DNA from: Terrimicrobium sacchariphilum
Lineage (GTDB): Bacteria; Verrucomicrobiota; Verrucomicrobiia; Chthoniobacterales; Terrimicrobiaceae
Reading direction: 5' to 3'
NCBI RefSeq assembly: GCF_001613545.1
Contig: NZ_BDCO01000003.1
Location: forward strand, 186,001-250,000
DNA: 64,000 bases
A program made the position numbers and the translations under genes. The notes beneath the pieces are model-generated. The model worked only from the letters and a program-made list of their open reading frames with translations, was not told where the DNA came from and searched no databases. Below are positions 6,450-64,000 of this stretch, one piece after another (position 1 is the stretch's first letter; each line of letters opens with the position of its first letter).

Positions 6450-7775
6450 CTAGTAGTTGTTTAGGGTCTTCCATCCGCTTCCAGGCGGTGGTGTTTGCTG
6501 GGACCTTGGCTGATTCTGTGGGCGGACCTGCTGCTGCTGGCGATTCTGTTGCTGCTGGAGTTGTATCTGCATGGCTTCGCGCTGCTGTTGCATTGCGTCT
6601 GCCTGGCTTTGTTGTTGGCTCTGCCGCATCATTCGCTGCTGGGTATCCTGGATCTGGCGGTTGCGTTCCTGCATCTGCTCCTGTTGTTGCTGGATGCGTA
6701 CAGCGGTGTCGGATGAGGGCGCCTGCTGCTGGATTTCCTGGCGACGCTGGCGGTTGGCGTTGATCTGGTATTGTTGTGCCTGCTGTTGCTGCTGGTACTG
6801 AACCGGAGGGACAACGGTTTGCACAGTTGGCGAATTGGAAGGGTTCGACTGCTGGGGGGCCGGGTAGCCGACTATGCGAGGTTGTGGTTGCACTGTGACG
6901 GTCTGCGCTGCTTGAGCGGGTTGAACGGCGGATTGTTGGGGAGGTGGCCCATTTTGGTGGCGCGGAATCCGGACGGTCACGCTGCGCTGGCTCGTCGCGG
7001 AAAATATCGGATAAACCCTGGGAGCTCGCACGGGCAGCACGCCTTGCTTCAAGAGAGCCTGTTGTTCCGCCGAAGCCGGCCACCCGACGGCATCCTGGTA
7101 CTTCTGGATCTGGTATTGCGGGACGGAGTACTGCCCCTGCTGGTTGATCCGAGCGTAGTCGGGCCCATTGCAGTAGATCGCGTTATTGCGCACCGCGATC
7201 TTCGTGACATTGGTCGTCGTGGGCAGGATCACTCCGTTCTGCCTCACCGGCATCAATACGGGACGCAGTGCCGGCCAGCCGAGATATTGTACCGGGCAGA
7301 AGGTATAGACCTGAATTCCGATCCCGTAGGAAGCATCAACGCTCGTGTTGAATCCGGCCGAGGGTTCCCATACGGCCTCAGGGGGCAGGGGAGCCCAGCC
7401 GATATAGTCATCATTTGTGCGCCAGGATACCCAGGCGGGAGCCCATTCGTATCCAGGCACCCAGATCCAGGCACCGTCTTCCAGCGTGGTCCATCGACCA
7501 TAGTGGTAGGTGATCCATCCCCATGGTTCGTTGGACATCCAAGTCCATCCCGCGTCCGTTTGCGCCCAACGGCCATCCGTGTAGGGACGCCAGTCGGAGT
7601 CCACCTTGGGGCGCCAGCTCGTGCCGTAGCCATCCACGTCGATCCACTCGCCGTAGGGGGAAAGTTCATGAAAAAATGTGTCAAAAGTGACCGGAGATTG
7701 GGTCTGGGCGGATGCTCCGGAAGGAAAAATTCCCAGCAGGGCAACGATTGCCGCCAGGAGGAGGGGAAATTTCAT
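6450..7775 (-). CDS. Secreted DUF6600-like protein with a glutamine-rich C-terminus
   Basis: A 441-residue protein with a signal peptide (MKFPLLLAAIVALLGIFPSGASA). Residues of about 25-150 carry tryptophan/tyrosine-rich repeats such as YGEWIDVDGYG, WRPYTDGRW, EPWGWITYHYGRW and IGWAPLPPEA, the pattern of DUF6600 proteins. The last 200 or so residues are very rich in glutamine (runs such as QQQQQAQQ), with proline and asparagine, and look disordered. The function of this family is not established; an envelope or extracellular role is inferred from the signal peptide. It converges on the gene ending at 6412, with 37 bases between stops and no clear terminator. Confidence 0.85.
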   Translation of the reverse strand: MKFPLLLAAIVALLGIFPSGASAQTQSPVTFDTFFHELSPYGEWIDVDGYGTSWRPKVDSDWRPYTDGRWAQTDAGWTWMSNEPWGWITYHYGRWTTLEDGAWIWVPGYEWAPAWVSWRTNDDYIGWAPLPPEAVWEPSAGFNTSVDASYGIGIQVYTFCPVQYLGWPALRPVLMPVRQNGVILPTTTNVTKIAVRNNAIYCNGPDYARINQQGQYSVPQYQIQKYQDAVGWPASAEQQALLKQGVLPVRAPRVYPIFSATSQRSVTVRIPRHQNGPPPQQSAVQPAQAAQTVTVQPQPRIVGYPAPQQSNPSNSPTVQTVVPPVQYQQQQQAQQYQINANRQRRQEIQQQAPSSDTAVRIQQQQEQMQERNRQIQDTQQRMMRQSQQQSQADAMQQQREAMQIQLQQQQNRQQQQVRPQNQPRSQQTPPPGSGWKTLNNY

Positions 7776-8163: not shown

Positions 8164-9348
<1,185 letters not shown>

Positions 9349-9369
9349 GTTAGTCGCCTCTTTTGCCAA

Positions 9370-9442
<73 letters not shown>

Positions 9443-55096: not shown

Positions 55097-56020
55097 ATGT
55101 CATCGGACCGCTTCCCGCTTCACCGTCCTGCCGCCTCGCGTCTTGAGGGGTGTTGTGAAATCAACCGCCAGTTAATGAAGGCGGTCTCGCCGACGCACAT
55201 CCGCGTGCGAGGGGCGCGCATGGAGGTTTCTCTACATGATCAGTGGCCCCAAATGCTTTACGGTTTGAAAGCCTGGGGTGAGGTGCTGGTAATAACCCGG
55301 AACGGCAGCGCTGTCCTCGGCCAGACCCGGGAATATCCGGAACTGCGATTTTCCCACGATTTCATTCACGCGCGAAGCCCGGAGGATGCCTTCGATATGG
55401 ACTTTCCCCCATTCCATTCGGCTCGACTGGTGGTCGAGGAGCGTGGCGAACATTTTGCATACTATGTAGAGTTCCTCGATGGACGTGGCGATGTGCTGCA
55501 CAAGGTCTGCACGACGAATGCCTCCGACATGGAGCAGGTGCTCATATGGACCGAATTTCATCAGGGATTATCGAGGCCGGATGAATCCCCCATGGCCGCG
55601 CTCGCTCATCGCTGGCGGAGGGTCCAGCAGCGTCACTGGTTCGGAATCGAGGAGGCCGAAGAAGTGCAGGAAAACTCCCTTTCGCTGCTTCTACTGGAGG
55701 CGCGGAAAAGAAGGTTTCCCATCCGCCTCATGACGGGAAATGAAGGCGTGGTCCAGGCTGCAACCATGATCCCGCAACGGCTGGTGCCATCCAATGGCTG
55801 GATGTTTTGCAGCGATGATACGACAGGGTTGCACTATGACCCCGAGACCTTCGGGAGTCTGGTGGTCCACCATCTCTCCGAGTTGCAGGATCATCCGCCG
55901 GTATCGGTGCTGAAATGCTTCGACGATCGCGGTGAACTCTGCCTTGCGGTCGCTCCACCAGAGCCCGACCTCCTCGCAGAGTGGGGTTCGCTCCTCAACG
56001 CGGCGGTCTGCCCGCGTTAG
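55097..56020 (+). CDS. HemS/ChuS-like haem-utilisation protein
   Basis: A 307-residue protein with segments like the HemS/HmuS/ChuS family: LKAWGEVLVITRNGSAVLGQ (compare the family's GEVMALTRN..AVHE), then FAYYVEFLDGRGDVLHKVCT and SDMEQVLIWTEFH. The family binds or degrades haem in the cytoplasm after import. Similarity is limited, and the axial His cannot be fixed. Downstream of a ferritin and flavodoxins, a role in haem-iron release is plausible. The start is ATG 55097, 84 bases after the ferritin. Confidence 0.8.
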   Translation: MSSDRFPLHRPAASRLEGCCEINRQLMKAVSPTHIRVRGARMEVSLHDQWPQMLYGLKAWGEVLVITRNGSAVLGQTREYPELRFSHDFIHARSPEDAFDMDFPPFHSARLVVEERGEHFAYYVEFLDGRGDVLHKVCTTNASDMEQVLIWTEFHQGLSRPDESPMAALAHRWRRVQQRHWFGIEEAEEVQENSLSLLLLEARKRRFPIRLMTGNEGVVQAATMIPQRLVPSNGWMFCSDDTTGLHYDPETFGSLVVHHLSELQDHPPVSVLKCFDDRGELCLAVAPPEPDLLAEWGSLLNAAVCPR

Positions 56021-57040: not shown

Positions 57041-57838
57041 ATGGGAGATAGTCGGCAAGTGACGAAAGCGCGTAGTTCCGTGTCGGCGACGGCTGATCTT
57101 CGCGAGCTTTGCCGGCTGCGCTCGGATCTCGAGGCGTTCGCCGTTGTCCGATTGCGGCGAAGTCCCGATCGGGTTCGGATCTTTCAGGCTTTGGAGGTGC
57201 AAATGCGACAATTGAGATCTGCGGCGATGCGTGGTGACTATGAGCGGTTTCATCTCGAAGACATGGCTCTCCATCGCATCGTGATCGAGACCCCTGGGCT
57301 GGCAGCTCTCGTGCGTTCCTGGAATCTGGTTTCCGAGGAGCTCGACGCATGGATCCTTCAGGTAAAGTTTACCAACTGGCCGAGCCTTATGGCTCTTTAT
57401 CGGGAGCATGAGTACCTCGTTGACGCCTGGAACTCCGACGATGACGACGCGGCAGCAGGCGCGACTCACCACCATCTCGAGGCGGGGTGGTATCGCGTCG
57501 CGATGGCTCAGGATGCGCTCCCGATTGAGGGAACCGCCGTCGATCGGGCGGCCTCGTTTCTTTCCACGCACTATGCAAGCAGCATCGATGTCAAGTGGAT
57601 GGCGGAAAACATTTGTTTTGTCAGTCCGAGCCACCTGACCCGTCTATTCCGTGCGCAGTTCGGGAAAGCTCCGTATGCATGGCTCCGTCAGATCCGTATG
57701 GAGAGGGCTGCCGAGTTGATCGCGGGTTGCGCCAGGTCGGTATCAGCAGTGGCCCGGCAGGTCGGATATCGGAATGCGTCGCATTTTGTTCGGGACTTTC
57801 GTGCTTATCATGGCGTGACGCCTGGAAAGTTCCACTAA
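57041..57838 (+). CDS. Transcriptional regulator with FCD-like sensor domain and C-terminal AraC-type DNA-binding domain
   Basis: A 265-residue protein. Residues of about 20-155 match the helical FCD pattern of GntR/FadR-type regulators: LCRLRSDLEAFAVVRLRR, YERFHLEDMALHRIVIE and EHEYLVDAWNSDDDDAA, then THHHLEAG, with His and Asp residues able to bind a metal and an organic acid. Residues of about 165-265 are an AraC double helix-turn-helix (LTRLFRAQFGKAPYAWLRQI, then ARQVGYRNASHFVRDFRAYH and GVTPGKFH). GntR regulators normally carry FCD behind a winged helix, so this pairing is unusual. It is the first gene of the catabolic region. Confidence 0.88.
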   Translation: MGDSRQVTKARSSVSATADLRELCRLRSDLEAFAVVRLRRSPDRVRIFQALEVQMRQLRSAAMRGDYERFHLEDMALHRIVIETPGLAALVRSWNLVSEELDAWILQVKFTNWPSLMALYREHEYLVDAWNSDDDDAAAGATHHHLEAGWYRVAMAQDALPIEGTAVDRAASFLSTHYASSIDVKWMAENICFVSPSHLTRLFRAQFGKAPYAWLRQIRMERAAELIAGCARSVSAVARQVGYRNASHFVRDFRAYHGVTPGKFH

Positions 57839-57940
57839 TAAAGTATCCTAAAACGAGCAATCGCTTGTCCGGCTAGGCGCAATGAGACCAAGAGGGGGCA
57901 TTGTGAGTTGTGCCCTTTTGCTTGCGCATCAATATTGGAT

Positions 57941-57974
57941 GAGAACTCGCACTGAGTGTCAGTTGCGGGTTCTC
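57941..57974 (+). terminator. Long hairpin after the FCD-AraC regulator gene
   Basis: GAGAACTCGC (57941-57950) pairs with GCGGGTTCTC (57965-57974) with one G-T wobble. Inside, ACTGA pairs with TCAGT, making a stem of about 15 pairs; TTT follows. It probably ends the regulator transcript, though the T-run is short and it lies 103 bases beyond the stop. Confidence 0.55.
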
Positions 57975-58230
57975 TTTGAATGAACACGACCGGAGACACG
58001 TTTGCCTACCTATATCCTGTTTGGATTATCGCGCCCACGCCTGTAGGCCTGCCGGGATCGGGGGCCTGTCTGGACTTCTTGTCGGAGGCACCCGTCGAAA
58101 TTGAAATCCGGGAGTAGCTTCGTGCCCTGATACACTCATGAGCACACGAACTGGTATCTATTATTGGAAATGCGATCGGCCCGCCGCATTTCATGGCACG
58201 GATGGAGCTGCAGCCGGAGGAGAACTCACC
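57975..58230 (+). other. Upstream region of the kinase-like/aldolase pair
   Basis: With the hairpin and the stretch before it, the gap between stop 57838 and start 58231 is 392 bases. I see no further gene here. It must hold the promoter of the pair at 58231-59975, and a binding site for the regulator at 57041 is likely, but no clear repeat could be identified. An in-frame ATG at 58138 exists but lacks a ribosome binding site. Confidence 0.4.
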
Positions 58231-59229
58231 ATGGCTGCTCAGTTGGAGCGATCTCTGCGGAATCGGTTTGGTGACGACGGTATCTGCGTGAGGTCTGCCG
58301 GAGGACAGGGGAATCATCGTACCTATCTTGCGGAGATGGGGGCGACCCCGGCCTTTATTCGTGTCGAGGATGGGCCGGAACACGATGATTACTTCGATGT
58401 TGAGGCAGTCATTCTCGATGAAATTCGCGCCCGGCAGATACCTGCTCCGCTTCACCTCGGGTCCGACACGAGCCGCGAACAAACGTCCTTTGCCTGGCAG
58501 GTCCTGGAGCGCATTCAGGCTCCCGACCTCAATCAGCTCCTCAAGGCGGGCAGGCTTCCCCTGGAACAGCTTGCCGGGAAGATCGGTGAGCTCGTTGCAT
58601 GCTGGCAAGGAATCGCTCCGACGGGTTTCGGTCCCTTGGATGCATCGGAGGCTCGCCGGACCTGTGCATTGCAGGGCTTGCATTCAGACTATCCCGCGTA
58701 CTTTTACCTCAACCTGGAACGTCATCTTTCCTTTCTGGCAGACAAGGAGTTCCTGACATCAGGCTGCGTGCGTGAGATACTGGCCGAGGTCCAGGAGCAT
58801 GAGAAACTCCTTTACCTCGAGGAAGGATGTCTCGTTCACAAGGATCTCGCCCTTTGGAACATTCTGGGTACGACCACGGAGATTCTTGCCGTGATCGATT
58901 GGGATGACGCGATCTCCGGGGACCCGCTCGATGACATCTCGCTACTGGCCTGTTTTTATGGCGGATCTGTAATACGAGGCGCCTTGGATGGTTACTCGGC
59001 CGTGAGGCCACTTCCTACAGAATACCGGCGGCGATTCTGGCTGCACCTGCTGCGCAACATGCTCGTGAAGGCGGTAATTCGCGTCGGCGCGGGTTACTTC
59101 GACCGTAAGGCTGACTTCTTCCTGATCGGGCCGGGAGCCAACGGGCAGGATCTCCGGTCGTTCACCCTCCAGCGCATTCAAGAGGCGGTGAACGGACTGC
59201 GCAACGATATCGACCCTGGCCATCTATGA
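58231..59229 (+). CDS. Aminoglycoside-phosphotransferase-fold small-molecule kinase
   Basis: A 332-residue kinase-like protein of the APH/choline kinase fold. It has the catalytic loop LVHKDLALWNILG (Brenner-type H-x-D-x4-N) and the metal-binding VIDWDDAISGDP. I choose ATG 58231 (MAAQLERSLRNRFGDDG) because GGAGG lies just upstream; the ATG at 58138 has none. The stop overlaps the aldolase start (ATGA), so the products probably act in one pathway. A metabolic substrate such as a hydroxy acid or amino alcohol is more likely than an antibiotic in this context, but that is inference. Confidence 0.85.
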   Translation: MAAQLERSLRNRFGDDGICVRSAGGQGNHRTYLAEMGATPAFIRVEDGPEHDDYFDVEAVILDEIRARQIPAPLHLGSDTSREQTSFAWQVLERIQAPDLNQLLKAGRLPLEQLAGKIGELVACWQGIAPTGFGPLDASEARRTCALQGLHSDYPAYFYLNLERHLSFLADKEFLTSGCVREILAEVQEHEKLLYLEEGCLVHKDLALWNILGTTTEILAVIDWDDAISGDPLDDISLLACFYGGSVIRGALDGYSAVRPLPTEYRRRFWLHLLRNMLVKAVIRVGAGYFDRKADFFLIGPGANGQDLRSFTLQRIQEAVNGLRNDIDPGHL

Positions 59230-59975
59230 AAACACCGCTCGCATCACTCCTGGAAGCCGGCCCTTCCGCGCTTGGAACGTGGATTTCTCTGGGCGATCCT
59301 GTTGTCACCGAAATGGCATCGGAGTTCGGTTTCGACTGGCTGCTTATAGACCTTGAGCATGGAGGTTTTACGGAGGCAGCGGTATTGGGGAATCTCCAGG
59401 CTGTCCGGCATCCCGCGACGTCGCCCATCGTTCGCGTTCCGAAGCTTGATCCAGCGCTCATCGCCCGCATGCTCGACCGGGGGGCGCATGGAGTGATGGT
59501 CCCGCATATTTCCTCACCGGACGAGGCGCGTGCACTCGTGAGCGCGACTAGGTATACACCTCATGGAGAGCGCGGGTACTCCCGTACGGTCCGGGCGTAC
59601 GGGTACGGTCGGCGCATCCCGGAGGATGCTGCTTCCTACCGATGCGTTGTCATGGCTCAGATCGAGAACCTGGCCGGGGTGAACCATGTGGAGGAGATCG
59701 CCGCGGTCGATGGGGTCGATGTGCTCTTTGTCGGTCCGGCGGATCTCACGCACGACCTTGCCGTTCGGGGGGCGGCTGATCGTTATGAGGCAAGCCTGCT
59801 CCGTGTCGCATGCGCTGCCCGGGAGCACGGCAAGGCCGCCGGAATTCTCGCTCGCAACCTCAAGGACATTCCCCACTTGAAAGCGATCGGCTATCGTGTT
59901 TTTGCGTTGGATTCCGATATCGGACTCTTGCGCAAAGGCTACGAATGCACCGTCGAGGCGCGAAATCTGCTCTAA
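59226..59975 (+). CDS. HpcH/HpaI-family aldolase
   Basis: Class II, metal-dependent aldolase of 249 residues that cleaves 2-keto-3-deoxy or 4-hydroxy-2-oxo acids to pyruvate and an aldehyde. Family features are ALGTWISLGDPVVTEMASEF, LLIDLEHGGFTE, IVRVPKLDPALIARMLDRGA with GVMVPH, the metal-binding Glu in AQIENLAGV and Asp in LFVGPADLTHDL. It is coupled by a 4-base overlap to the kinase-like gene and converges on the symporter gene. Confidence 0.92.
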   Translation: MKTPLASLLEAGPSALGTWISLGDPVVTEMASEFGFDWLLIDLEHGGFTEAAVLGNLQAVRHPATSPIVRVPKLDPALIARMLDRGAHGVMVPHISSPDEARALVSATRYTPHGERGYSRTVRAYGYGRRIPEDAASYRCVVMAQIENLAGVNHVEEIAAVDGVDVLFVGPADLTHDLAVRGAADRYEASLLRVACAAREHGKAAGILARNLKDIPHLKAIGYRVFALDSDIGLLRKGYECTVEARNLL

Positions 59976-60057: not shown

Positions 60058-62013
60058 CTAGTTGGCTGGATCATCGAGATTGTGGTGATTGACCACCATG
60101 CCGTTGTCCTCCGCATTGGGACGCTCCTGCCGTAGCCGGGAGAAAAAGAGCCGCATGTCGCGGATGCCGCCCCAGGTGAACCAGATCGCCGTGACGAAGG
60201 CAAAGAAGACCGGGATGCCGATACCGACGACGAACCAGAAGTGCGACCATACCGCGATGGGCCACGGAGCGATGAGGTTCCAGATCGACCCGATGACGAG
60301 CACCCCAAACCACAGCATGCTCCAGCCGAAAAGGCCTCCGGCAAGGAACTTGTCACCAAGAGTGAAATGCTCATCGAATCCGATGAGCCTTCCCCATGTG
60401 ACGCGCCTGGTGGATACTGTCTCGTAGGCTTGCTCGGATTTCACGGCATACTTCCCGCGATGCAGCATGCGGTCCATGTCAAAATCCTTCCTGCAGGTGA
60501 GCAGCGAAACGACGGCATAAACGATGCAAGCCGAGATCGCGCCAAAGAAGCCGATCTGTGCGCCGTTGATCGGAAAGGCGTCGCCCCAGATCTGGCGGGC
60601 CAGGATGCCACTGGTGACGAGGCCAGAGCCCGTCAATAGTCCCGCCCAAGCTCCAGCCGTCGTGCCTTTTTTCCAATATAGGCCGCCGATGATCGCGACG
60701 CCGGCTCCGCCGACGTAGAGAGCCTCGGTAACCGCCCACCACATCATTACATACTCGGTTTGCTTGAAGAGACAGCCGAAACAGAAGGCAAAGACAGCGA
60801 CGCCGATCATCGCGCAGCGCAGGAGGCGAATATGCTGCTTTGGCGTGAACGGCTTCTTGCGCAGGGGAAGGATGACGTCTTGAATGAACAGACTGCCCCA
60901 GGAGAGCAGGTGCGTTCCATCTCCGCCGAAGATGCCCATGAGCAGGATGATGCATAGCAGCCCTTTGATACCCTCGGGTAGCATGTGCACGACTGCGATG
61001 GGAATCGTCATCTGCTCCTGAAGCTGGGGCTGGCCGATCTCGGCCACCTGCTGTTTTACTGCGGCGGCCTGCGCCGTGAAGTCGGGATGCGCCAGATACG
61101 TCATCGCGCAGACGGCGAGCAGCGTAATGATGGCGGAGTTGCCCAGGCCCTTCCAGTTGGCCATCACCCCGCCCATGCGGGACTCATGCGGAGTCACTGC
61201 CGCCGTCGTATAGGCACCCTGGTTTTGCCAGGCCATGGTGCGGTATACTGCTCCGAACAAACCCATCAACACATACCAGATGTTGAAATCCTTCAACCCC
61301 ATGGAATCGAAGGGGTTGAGCAGCGACTCGCCAGCAGGACGATTTTCCAGCACCGTCGAGATTTCCGACCAGCTGAACATCGTGAAGAGAAACGCGATGA
61401 TGATGAGAAAGAGCACCATCGACACCATGCCCTCCAGACAGTTTGTCACCATTAGTGTGATGAGGCCGCCGGAAAGCGTGAGCGCAAGGCTAATGCTCAG
61501 CAGCAGTGCCATCAGCGGAATATAGGTCGCCACCTCCCAGCCAAAGAGATGTACAGTGGGCGGAAGACCAAGAAAATACGTCATGAACCGCGCTCCCACG
61601 ACCGGGATGATGCCAAAATTGGCAATGCCTGCGGCGAATCCCAGGAAGCCAGTAAAGAGGCGGAAGCGCTTGCTGTAGCGAATCTCAAAGAACTGAGCCA
61701 GTGTCAGCGCTCTGGTCTCACGAAAGCGATAGATCACCCAGCCGCTGATCGCCACGATGAGCGTCACAGGCACGCTCAGCCATCCCCACCAGGTGAGGAC
61801 GAAGCCTGACTTGGATATCATCTCGAACATCGCGACAAATACCACCGCCCCGACGCCCTGCTCCCCTTTGGCCACTGCGAGGAGATACCTTCCCGCCATG
61901 CGTCCACCGGAGAGAAAGTCCGCTACTCCCTTGAGATAAGTCCGGGTGTAGAGCGCTACCGCGAGAAGGCCGAGAAGGGGCAAGGAAATCAACAGCCAAT
62001 CAATAAGATGCAT
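60058..62013 (-). CDS. Sodium:solute symporter family transporter
   Basis: A 651-residue membrane protein with about 13-15 hydrophobic segments. It begins MHLIDWLLISLPLLGLLAVA, followed by KGVADFLSGGRMAGRYLLAV, typical of the SSS family (the D-F-F-L-x-G-R type motif). Later come IFGGDGTHLLSWGSLFIQDV and GGLYWKKGTTAGAWAGLLTG. The C-terminus is hydrophilic (RLRQERPNAEDNG). I start at ATG 62011-62013. It is the last gene of the leftward catabolic group and is likely to import the substrate, an organic or sugar acid by context. Confidence 0.92.
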   Translation of the reverse strand: MHLIDWLLISLPLLGLLAVALYTRTYLKGVADFLSGGRMAGRYLLAVAKGEQGVGAVVFVAMFEMISKSGFVLTWWGWLSVPVTLIVAISGWVIYRFRETRALTLAQFFEIRYSKRFRLFTGFLGFAAGIANFGIIPVVGARFMTYFLGLPPTVHLFGWEVATYIPLMALLLSISLALTLSGGLITLMVTNCLEGMVSMVLFLIIIAFLFTMFSWSEISTVLENRPAGESLLNPFDSMGLKDFNIWYVLMGLFGAVYRTMAWQNQGAYTTAAVTPHESRMGGVMANWKGLGNSAIITLLAVCAMTYLAHPDFTAQAAAVKQQVAEIGQPQLQEQMTIPIAVVHMLPEGIKGLLCIILLMGIFGGDGTHLLSWGSLFIQDVILPLRKKPFTPKQHIRLLRCAMIGVAVFAFCFGCLFKQTEYVMMWWAVTEALYVGGAGVAIIGGLYWKKGTTAGAWAGLLTGSGLVTSGILARQIWGDAFPINGAQIGFFGAISACIVYAVVSLLTCRKDFDMDRMLHRGKYAVKSEQAYETVSTRRVTWGRLIGFDEHFTLGDKFLAGGLFGWSMLWFGVLVIGSIWNLIAPWPIAVWSHFWFVVGIGIPVFFAFVTAIWFTWGGIRDMRLFFSRLRQERPNAEDNGMVVNHHNLDDPAN

Positions 62014-62078
62014 GGGGGCGAAATGGGATATATACCAGCGAGCCGGACGATATTGCTCGAGCGGAACCTTGGCAAATA

Positions 62079-62897
62079 TTATCCCTGAAACGGACGACTC
62101 TCCGGTACCACCGGGTTCGTCAAAGCGCCTATGCCCTCGATGTCGACAGTCACCACATCGCCAGGCTTGAGCCAGCGCGGCGGCTTTGCCGCCATACCGA
62201 CTCCATGAGGTGTGCCTGTCAATATCACAGTCCCTGGCAGCAAGGTTGTGCTGCCGCTCAAGAACTCGATCAGCGCCGGGACATCGAAGATCATGTCTGC
62301 GGTATTCCAATCCTGCACGGTTTCCCCATTCAGAAGTGTGCAAATGCGTAGTGCATTCGGATCCCTGATCTCGTCACGAGTGACGATCGCCGGACCCAAT
62401 GGGCAGAAGGTGTCAAAGGTTTTGCCGCGACACCACTGGCCTCCGCCCTTTCTGATCTGCCAGTCCCGCGCGCTGACATCATTGGCGCAGGTATATCCCA
62501 GGACATAATCCATGGCACAGTCGCGCGGGACATTTTTGCAGCGCTTTCCCATAACGATTGCCAACTCGCATTCATAATCCACTTCATCGCTGGGAAGGGT
62601 TGCTGGAATCTCGATGGGGTCGCCTGGATTTTGAAGGGAGTTGACGCCTTTGACGAAAAGCACTGGATAATCCGGAATCGCCATCCCGCTCTCCGCAGCG
62701 TGACGCTTGTAGTTCAATCCGATGCAAAGGATTTCGGTGGGAATGAGTGGGGCAAGGAATTTTCCTGGTATCGAGAGCGTTTCAGAGAGTTGGAATGATC
62801 CGAAAAGATTGCCATGGATTTGACGCACTCTGCCGTCGCGTTCCAGCGCTCCATGAGAGATTCCGCCGTTGCGATCTTCGTATCGGATGATTTTCAT
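62079..62897 (-). CDS. Fumarylacetoacetate hydrolase-family enzyme
   Basis: A 272-residue enzyme of the FAH superfamily, which cleaves or decarboxylates beta-diketo and 2-keto-3-deoxy type acids with a divalent metal. Features are ILCIGLNYKRHAAESG, DYECELAIVMGK (metal-binding Glu residues), YTCANDVSARDWQ (metal Asp), GKTFDTFCPLGPAIVT and TGTPHGVGMAAKPP. FAH-fold 2,4-diketo-3-deoxy-L-fuconate hydrolases have a similar layout, but the substrate is unproven. The start is ATG 62895-62897, 25 bases after the dehydrogenase stop. Confidence 0.92.
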   Translation of the reverse strand: MKIIRYEDRNGGISHGALERDGRVRQIHGNLFGSFQLSETLSIPGKFLAPLIPTEILCIGLNYKRHAAESGMAIPDYPVLFVKGVNSLQNPGDPIEIPATLPSDEVDYECELAIVMGKRCKNVPRDCAMDYVLGYTCANDVSARDWQIRKGGGQWCRGKTFDTFCPLGPAIVTRDEIRDPNALRICTLLNGETVQDWNTADMIFDVPALIEFLSGSTTLLPGTVILTGTPHGVGMAAKPPRWLKPGDVVTVDIEGIGALTNPVVPESRPFQG

Positions 62898-62922
62898 AGA
62901 TCTTCTGCCGATCGGGCTCCAG

Positions 62923-63876
62923 CTAGACGCGGTTGACGGGGTGCGAAAGCGCCAGGCCGGCAAGACCCCGCACGATCTCCTCAGCTGCTTTACGCTGGAG
63001 CTCCGGTACGCTGCCTCCGCTGTACCAGGCAGTATGGGAAGTCAGGATCGTATTTGGAACATCTCGAAGAGGATGATCTCCCAGCAATGGTTCTGTCTCG
63101 AATACGTCCAGACCGGCCCCTGCGATACCTCCCTGAGCAAGTGCTTCGGTCAGAGCCTCGGTATCTATCAATCCGCCGCGTGCTGTATTGACCAATACAG
63201 CATCGTTTCGCATCCGGCTCAGCCTGGTTCGATCGATGAAGTGCCTTGTTTGGGTCGTAAGGGGAAGATGAAGGGAGAGAATCCCAGCTTCTTGAAAAAG
63301 CTCCTCCAATTGAAGCTGCTTCACTCCCAGCGCGGCGAACTTCTCCGTTGGAACCAGAGGATCATAAGCAGCGAGTTGAAAGCCGAATCCTCTCGCCCTT
63401 TCGAGCACTGCCCTGGCGATACGGCCAAAGCCAGCGGTGGCAAATACGGTATCCCGGAAAGCGGGAAAGGAGGTGGGTGGGGTGATTTTCCAGGTCCCTT
63501 GCCGGACGAGGGCATCGGTCTGCGGAAGTCGCCGGGTCAAGGAGAGGGCGAGTGCGAGCGAATGGTCCGAGACCTCATCAATGCAGTAGTCGGGAACATT
63601 GCAAACCGGGATGTTTCTTGCAGTGGCCGCCTGGAGATCAATGTTGTCGACCCCGATGCCGTAGCGAACGATGATCCGGCATTGATTGAGGTGGGCGACG
63701 ACTTCGCTGGTGACTGGCGCCCATTGAACCAGCAGAGCGTCGGCTTCCCCACACTCTGCTATGACATCCTCCGCGGTTTTGCATTGCGCGACATGAAGCT
63801 TTGCTCCGGTCTGCGTGATGATTTCACGCTCGCGGTCGACATGGGGGAATCCGTGATCGGTGATGAAGACGTTCAT
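62923..63876 (-). CDS. D-isomer specific 2-hydroxyacid dehydrogenase
   Basis: NAD-dependent enzyme of 317 residues reducing 2-keto acids or oxidising D-2-hydroxy acids. The Rossmann site is TAGFGRIARAV, where the third glycine of the usual GxGxxG is alanine. Catalytic residues are all present: Arg in VNTARGGLID, Glu in LDVFETEPL and His in LTSHTAWYS. YGIGVDNIDL and VPDYCIDEVSDHSLAL are also typical. The start is ATG 63874-63876, 19 bases after the dehydrogenase gene cut by the window edge. Confidence 0.93.
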   Translation of the reverse strand: MNVFITDHGFPHVDREREIITQTGAKLHVAQCKTAEDVIAECGEADALLVQWAPVTSEVVAHLNQCRIIVRYGIGVDNIDLQAATARNIPVCNVPDYCIDEVSDHSLALALSLTRRLPQTDALVRQGTWKITPPTSFPAFRDTVFATAGFGRIARAVLERARGFGFQLAAYDPLVPTEKFAALGVKQLQLEELFQEAGILSLHLPLTTQTRHFIDRTRLSRMRNDAVLVNTARGGLIDTEALTEALAQGGIAGAGLDVFETEPLLGDHPLRDVPNTILTSHTAWYSGGSVPELQRKAAEEIVRGLAGLALSHPVNRV

Positions 63877-63895
63877 TGATGGACGAAATGAGGTC

Positions 63896-64000
63896 CTAGA
63901 AGTCCCGCATGAAGCCGCCCGCGGACCAGCCGCCATCGACGCAAAGCGTCTGGCCTGTGATGTAGCTGCTCTCGGGAGCTGCGAGAAAGACGATGACGTT
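63896..64000 (-). CDS. Short-chain dehydrogenase/reductase, C-terminal end (cut by window edge)
   Basis: Only the last 34 codons are inside the window. They read FLAAPESSYITGQTLCVDGG and end WSAGGFMRDF. The YITGQ.L.VDGG pattern is the standard C-terminus of classical SDR enzymes. It is the first visible gene of the leftward group SDR, 2-hydroxyacid dehydrogenase, FAH-family enzyme, symporter. Confidence 0.88.
   Translation of the reverse strand, partial: NVIVFLAAPESSYITGQTLCVDGGWSAGGFMRDF

Follow-up and report, generated by a model that had tools for sequence, protein, structure and literature searches.

Within the window, the 64,000-nucleotide stretch of DNA analyzed here, the soil bacterium Terrimicrobium sacchariphilum NM-5 encodes a 265-residue regulator in which an FCD sensor domain is followed by an AraC-type double helix-turn-helix (HTH) DNA-binding domain (Table 1). 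Downstream on the same strand lie the genes for an APH/fructosamine-kinase-like phosphotransferase and for an HpcH/HpaI aldolase, two genes that share 4 bases; the aldolase matches TIGR02311 and GarL with E about 1e-48, below the equivalog cut-offs. Convergent to the aldolase gene, a sodium:solute symporter, an FAA-hydrolase family enzyme and a D-2-hydroxyacid dehydrogenase are encoded in a row (60058–63936, minus strand), and this block is perhaps a separate acid-catabolism unit. The FAA hydrolase resembles 2,4-didehydro-3-deoxy-L-rhamnonate hydrolase with a score below the cut-off. Upstream of the regulator, a HemS/ChuX-like haem protein is encoded at 55097–56020 on the plus strand (Pfam HemS, E 5.6e-16).

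Table 1. Coordinates of the regulator gene, its domains and candidate sensor residues, and the neighboring genes (window numbering).
Feature	Position	Strand	Basis or remark
FCD-AraC regulator gene	57041..57838, stop codon included	+	265 aa ORF
FCD sensor domain, residues 22-147	57104..57481	+	Pfam PF07729 E 2.9e-12; fold matches span residues 12-161
Arg27 codon	57119..57121	+	aligned with NanR Arg128 (ligand carboxylate salt bridge)
Asp74-x3-His78	57260..57274	+	aligned with NanR Zn ligands Asp172, His176
His123	57407..57409	+	aligned with NanR Zn ligand His222
His145	57473..57475	+	aligned with NanR Zn ligand His244
Linker, residues 148-165	57482..57535	+	tail of last FCD helix, then a short link of lower confidence (pLDDT about 78-80)
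AraC-type double HTH DNA-binding domain, residues 166-265	57536..57835	+	HTH_18 at 193-264; structural matches
Regulator/kinase intergenic region, proposed target promoter	57839..58137	+	proposed from gene order
APH/fructosamine-kinase-like phosphotransferase, start motif IYYWKCDRPAA.HG	58138..59229	+	Pfam APH E 1.9e-16; conserved partner
HpcH/HpaI aldolase (HpaI/GarL-like)	59226..59975	+	Pfam HpcH_HpaI E 2.3e-37; conserved partner
Sodium:solute symporter, ORF start probably too far upstream	60058..62343	-	Pfam SSF E 3e-13; not conserved with regulator
FAA-hydrolase family enzyme	62079..62963	-	Pfam E 1.9e-76; not conserved with regulator
D-2-hydroxyacid dehydrogenase	62923..63936	-	Pfam E 6.8e-54; not conserved with regulator

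The FCD effector domain usually lies C-terminal to a GntR winged helix and is treated as a signature of the GntR/FadR family. In the regulator it stands at the N-terminus, where the PF07729 model is matched over positions 1–124 of 125 (E 3e-12; 47.5 bits vs a curated cut-off of 24.3), and the C-terminus matches HTH_18 (E 2.3e-21; 76 bits vs a cut-off of 33.6) as well as HTH_AraC in two stretches (E 1e-15), the pair of HTHs that marks the AraC/XylS family. Even with E relaxed to 10, Pfam detected no GntR winged helix, and a truncated winged helix at the N-terminus is excluded because the frame measures 274 residues from stop to stop, leaving only ~9 codons ahead of the start. Because both domains exceed their curated cut-offs and recur together in other species at 30–54% identity, the architecture is confirmed as real and chance is ruled out. 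The regulator is also the sole FCD match in the T. sacchariphilum genome.

The same two folds are found in an AlphaFold2 model built on an alignment of 12 homologues (pLDDT 89.8, pTM 0.83), which has helices over residues 5–156 and an AraC-like bundle from residue 166. When the predicted model was compared with known structures using VIA-align, residues 12–161 matched the FCD domains of GntR regulators with Z up to 16.4 at 2.5–3.4 Å (PDB entries 7u5q and 4p9f, both Z 16.4; by protein McbR, 16.4, DhdR with inducer, 16.0, TM0439, 15.5, NanR with sialic acid, 13.7, and also PdhR), and residues 161–265 matched the AraC-type DNA-binding domains of AraT (Z 16.9), AraC (13.7) and also AdpA. For helical bundles a Z of about 13 may be common, a caution answered by the independent sequence match to FCD. 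None of the 50 structural matches listed spans both halves of the regulator. A sequence-only reading of this DNA had proposed an FCD domain joined to an AraC double HTH, with the winged helix missing, and had named the lack of any significant FCD match, in profile or structure, as what would refute it; FCD models and FCD structures are the top matches for the N-terminal half, and the proposal holds in each of these parts.

The architecture recurs in at least 18 distinct FCD-AraC proteins, all within Verrucomicrobiota, and both domains score above the curated cut-offs in five further members scanned. When 18 FCD-AraC domains and 41 further FCD domains are placed in one tree, a single branch (support 100/99) separates the fusions from the rest; since the members were found by similarity, the tree shows one clade among the members found, and other fusions may exist. 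In an HMM test, the FCD proteins matching the family at E < 1e-30 all carry AraC and none carries GntR, while the weaker FCD proteins lack AraC without exception, and all except two of them gave a GntR match. The FCD-AraC regulator thus appears, from these sequence comparisons, to be a stable domain fusion with one origin. Close FCD relatives occur in 5 of the 388 genomes of a phylum sample, vs 159 of the 388 with some FCD protein, and strong matches in 12 of the 384 genomes of a class sample. Scanning GTDB species genomes yielded eight loci, every one in Verrucomicrobiota, from Spartobacteria (LR76, of the same genus as the Terrimicrobium regulator), Verrucomicrobium, Opitutia, Kiritimatiellales and others; this one scan, which relied on two peptide patterns derived from the clade itself and would miss independent fusions elsewhere, constitutes the search beyond the phylum. 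No relatives of the regulator were found on viral contigs. In a plasmid collection 11 records cover at least 80% of the query at about 24–25% identity; in one of them, a Sinorhizobium plasmid record (L073), no long ORF spans the match and only a 182-aa ORF lies upstream. One further locus (L103, G643:C109) holds two divergent FCD-AraC paralogues ~2 kb apart (6639–7055, minus strand, and 9014–9418, plus strand) that represent both subfamilies of the clade and are surrounded by several BNR genes.

What the FCD domain may sense can be approached through two characterized relatives. In NanR of E. coli, Arg128 binds the carboxylate of sialic acid and Asp172, His176, His222 and His244 bind a zinc ion (PMC8012715); in CitO of Enterococcus faecalis, an activator, citrate sensing requires a divalent metal, Arg97 and His191 (PMC4746285). 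Alignment with NanR pairs its zinc ligands and Arg128 with Asp74, His78, His123, His145 and Arg27 of the regulator, so that the His/Asp spacing of FCD domains that had been read from the sequence is borne out, and, judged by residues, the regulator has the Asp/His metal site of the metal-binding FCD subset. All five residues, together with Phe70, which aligns with NanR Phe168, are invariant in 21 of the 21 members compared. Because these invariant residues align with the ligands of NanR, and given the precedent of CitO, we infer on good grounds that the FCD domain of the regulator binds a metal and a carboxylate.

The FCD fold of NanR (GntR/FadR family; PDB 6on4) is shared over regulator residues 18–147 (Z 13.7), as is a context of sugar-acid catabolism, but NanR begins with a winged helix and lacks an AraC domain, and part of its Neu5Ac pocket (H214, N215 and S218) is without counterpart in the regulator alignment. 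Membership in the NanR equivalog was rejected (NCBIfam NF003011, 25 bits vs a cut-off of 260). CitO likewise uses an FCD domain for metal-dependent sensing of an organic acid, in its case to activate, but places it at the C-terminus behind a GntR winged helix. TM0439, a Zn-binding FCD regulator (PDB 3sxk/3fms), has the FCD bundle in common (profile match E 1e-5 to 5e-5; Z 14–15.5) and differs in having a GntR winged helix and lacking an AraC domain. With E. coli AraC (PDB 2k9s) the regulator shares the C-terminal double HTH, at 30% identity and a TM-score of 0.81 over the DNA-binding domain. The order of sensor and DNA-binder is that of AraC/XylS regulators, whose N-terminal sensor is a cupin/arm domain, whereas that of FCD-AraC is an all-helical FCD bundle. 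In a survey covering 761 genomes, the 46 companion domains identified for the AraC/XylS family were reported as exclusive to it among regulator families (PMC5882156).

Of the genes around the regulator, the kinase and the aldolase are its conserved partners. The same pair of kinase and HpcH/HpaI aldolase genes adjoins the regulator in 9 of the 14 main-clade loci and lies beside it at LR76, L027, L028, L036, L038 (cut off by the contig end), L039, L042 and L107; at L029 and L040 the pair is not adjacent, and the genome of L029 (G253) has one on another contig. Often the cluster also encodes a transporter of the PanS/BASS type, a secreted sialidase-like (BNR) protein and one more conserved domain, which matches nothing in Pfam. 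The kinase family is sharply bounded (E < 1e-100 or nothing) and present in 21 of the 384 class genomes, among them 9 of the 12 with the regulator (Fisher p 1.3e-10 and odds ratio 90, both uncorrected for genome relatedness). For divergent FCD-AraC members the neighborhood includes BNR proteins, NanA-like lyases or a sialate-type transporter. Homologues of the symporter, FAA hydrolase and 2-hydroxyacid dehydrogenase were found in none of the sixteen other loci searched (E 1e-5), and as context these genes are therefore weaker than the kinase–aldolase link. The sequence-only reading had placed the regulator beside genes for organic acid breakdown and had suggested HpcH aldolases and symporters as the place to look for its architecture: such genes do adjoin it here and the association with the aldolase is conserved, but the association with the symporter, hydrolase and dehydrogenase is not. 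Gibbs sampling for an 18 bp operator motif in 14 intergenic regions gave 12.48 bits vs 11.6–12.6 in shuffles, with no motif above the control.

We consider it probable that FCD-AraC is a one-component, ligand-responsive regulator, likely an activator, whose metal-bound FCD domain recognizes a sugar-acid-like carboxylate. The FCD domain stands where AraC itself has an arm/cupin sensor, ahead of the double HTH. Its predicted helical bundle would hold a divalent metal through Asp74, His78, His123 and His145, and Arg27, together with the metal, would bind a small acid by its carboxylate group. The most plausible ligand is a 2-keto-3-deoxy sugar acid or a nonulosonate-like acid, a class tentatively suggested by the neighboring genes. 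Binding would reposition the HTH pair, and possibly an FCD dimer too, at the adjacent kinase–aldolase promoter, and the operon, if it is the target, would then be switched on.

The sign of control is where the first alternative arises. AraC-type DNA-binding domains mostly activate. For this reason, and because the FCD regulator CitO activates (PMC4746285), we propose by analogy that the regulator probably activates the kinase–aldolase operon; that it instead represses the operon until released by ligand, like NanR, we regard as unlikely, even though NanR and many FCD proteins repress (PMC8012715), and the layout at L028, with the regulator transcribed away from the conserved operon across a short shared intergenic region, fits either mode. 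A second alternative concerns the sensor itself, which might bind no ligand and be a mere dimerization module of an AraC-type regulator that follows another signal. FCD domains do also dimerize GntR regulators, and the missing counterparts of the remaining NanR pocket residues fit this reading, but a pure dimerizer would have no need of four metal ligands and a carboxylate arginine kept invariant in 21 members down to about 30% identity, and we judge it quite improbable. Although unusual architectures of such kind frequently derive from errors, a frameshift or a merger of separate GntR-FCD and AraC genes is effectively ruled out: the ORF runs unbroken here, and so do those of no fewer than 17 other distinct proteins known from independent assemblies (30–93% identity), with one linker position and no GntR upstream.

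Our search of the open-access literature (PMC) found no description of an FCD-AraC regulator. The FCD and AraC parts are each known, and what is new is their combination and order. A conserved lineage with FCD ahead of AraC shows that this sensor can be transferred to a different output and the order reversed; if the proposed mechanism is true, FCD signaling is independent both of the GntR winged helix and of domain order. The fusion permits direct tests of how FCD domains transmit signals, suggests a portable metal-dependent acid sensor, and points to a conserved, uncharacterized sugar-acid cluster in Verrucomicrobiota, the substrate of which would be revealed by the ligand of the regulator. 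The broadest reading, to which we give an even chance, is that of an undescribed, vertically conserved class of one-component Verrucomicrobiota regulators, their AraC DNA-binding domain driven by a metal-dependent FCD acid sensor, that would control an undescribed sugar-acid pathway comprising a secreted BNR protein, a PanS-like transporter, an APH-like kinase and an HpcH aldolase.

The cluster of transporter, kinase (YYWKCDRPAA.HG), HpcH aldolase, and BNR plus conserved domain recurs with or without FCD-AraC (L132–L145, L027, L028, L039 and L107, and 58138–59975 of the window). Near clusters that lack FCD-AraC, the N-termini of two genes (L133:17190–18239 and L137:17466–18518) read like LacI-type regulators, and one kinase–aldolase cluster locus without FCD-AraC has an AraC-type gene nearby. 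Because the cluster also occurs in such settings, FCD-AraC is one regulatory solution among several for it. The further conserved domain, of ~510 residues, lies for example at L042:6146–7735 (minus strand) and L027:5152–6696 (plus strand); it has no Pfam match at E 0.001, is often fused behind the BNR domain and is 37–75% identical between loci.
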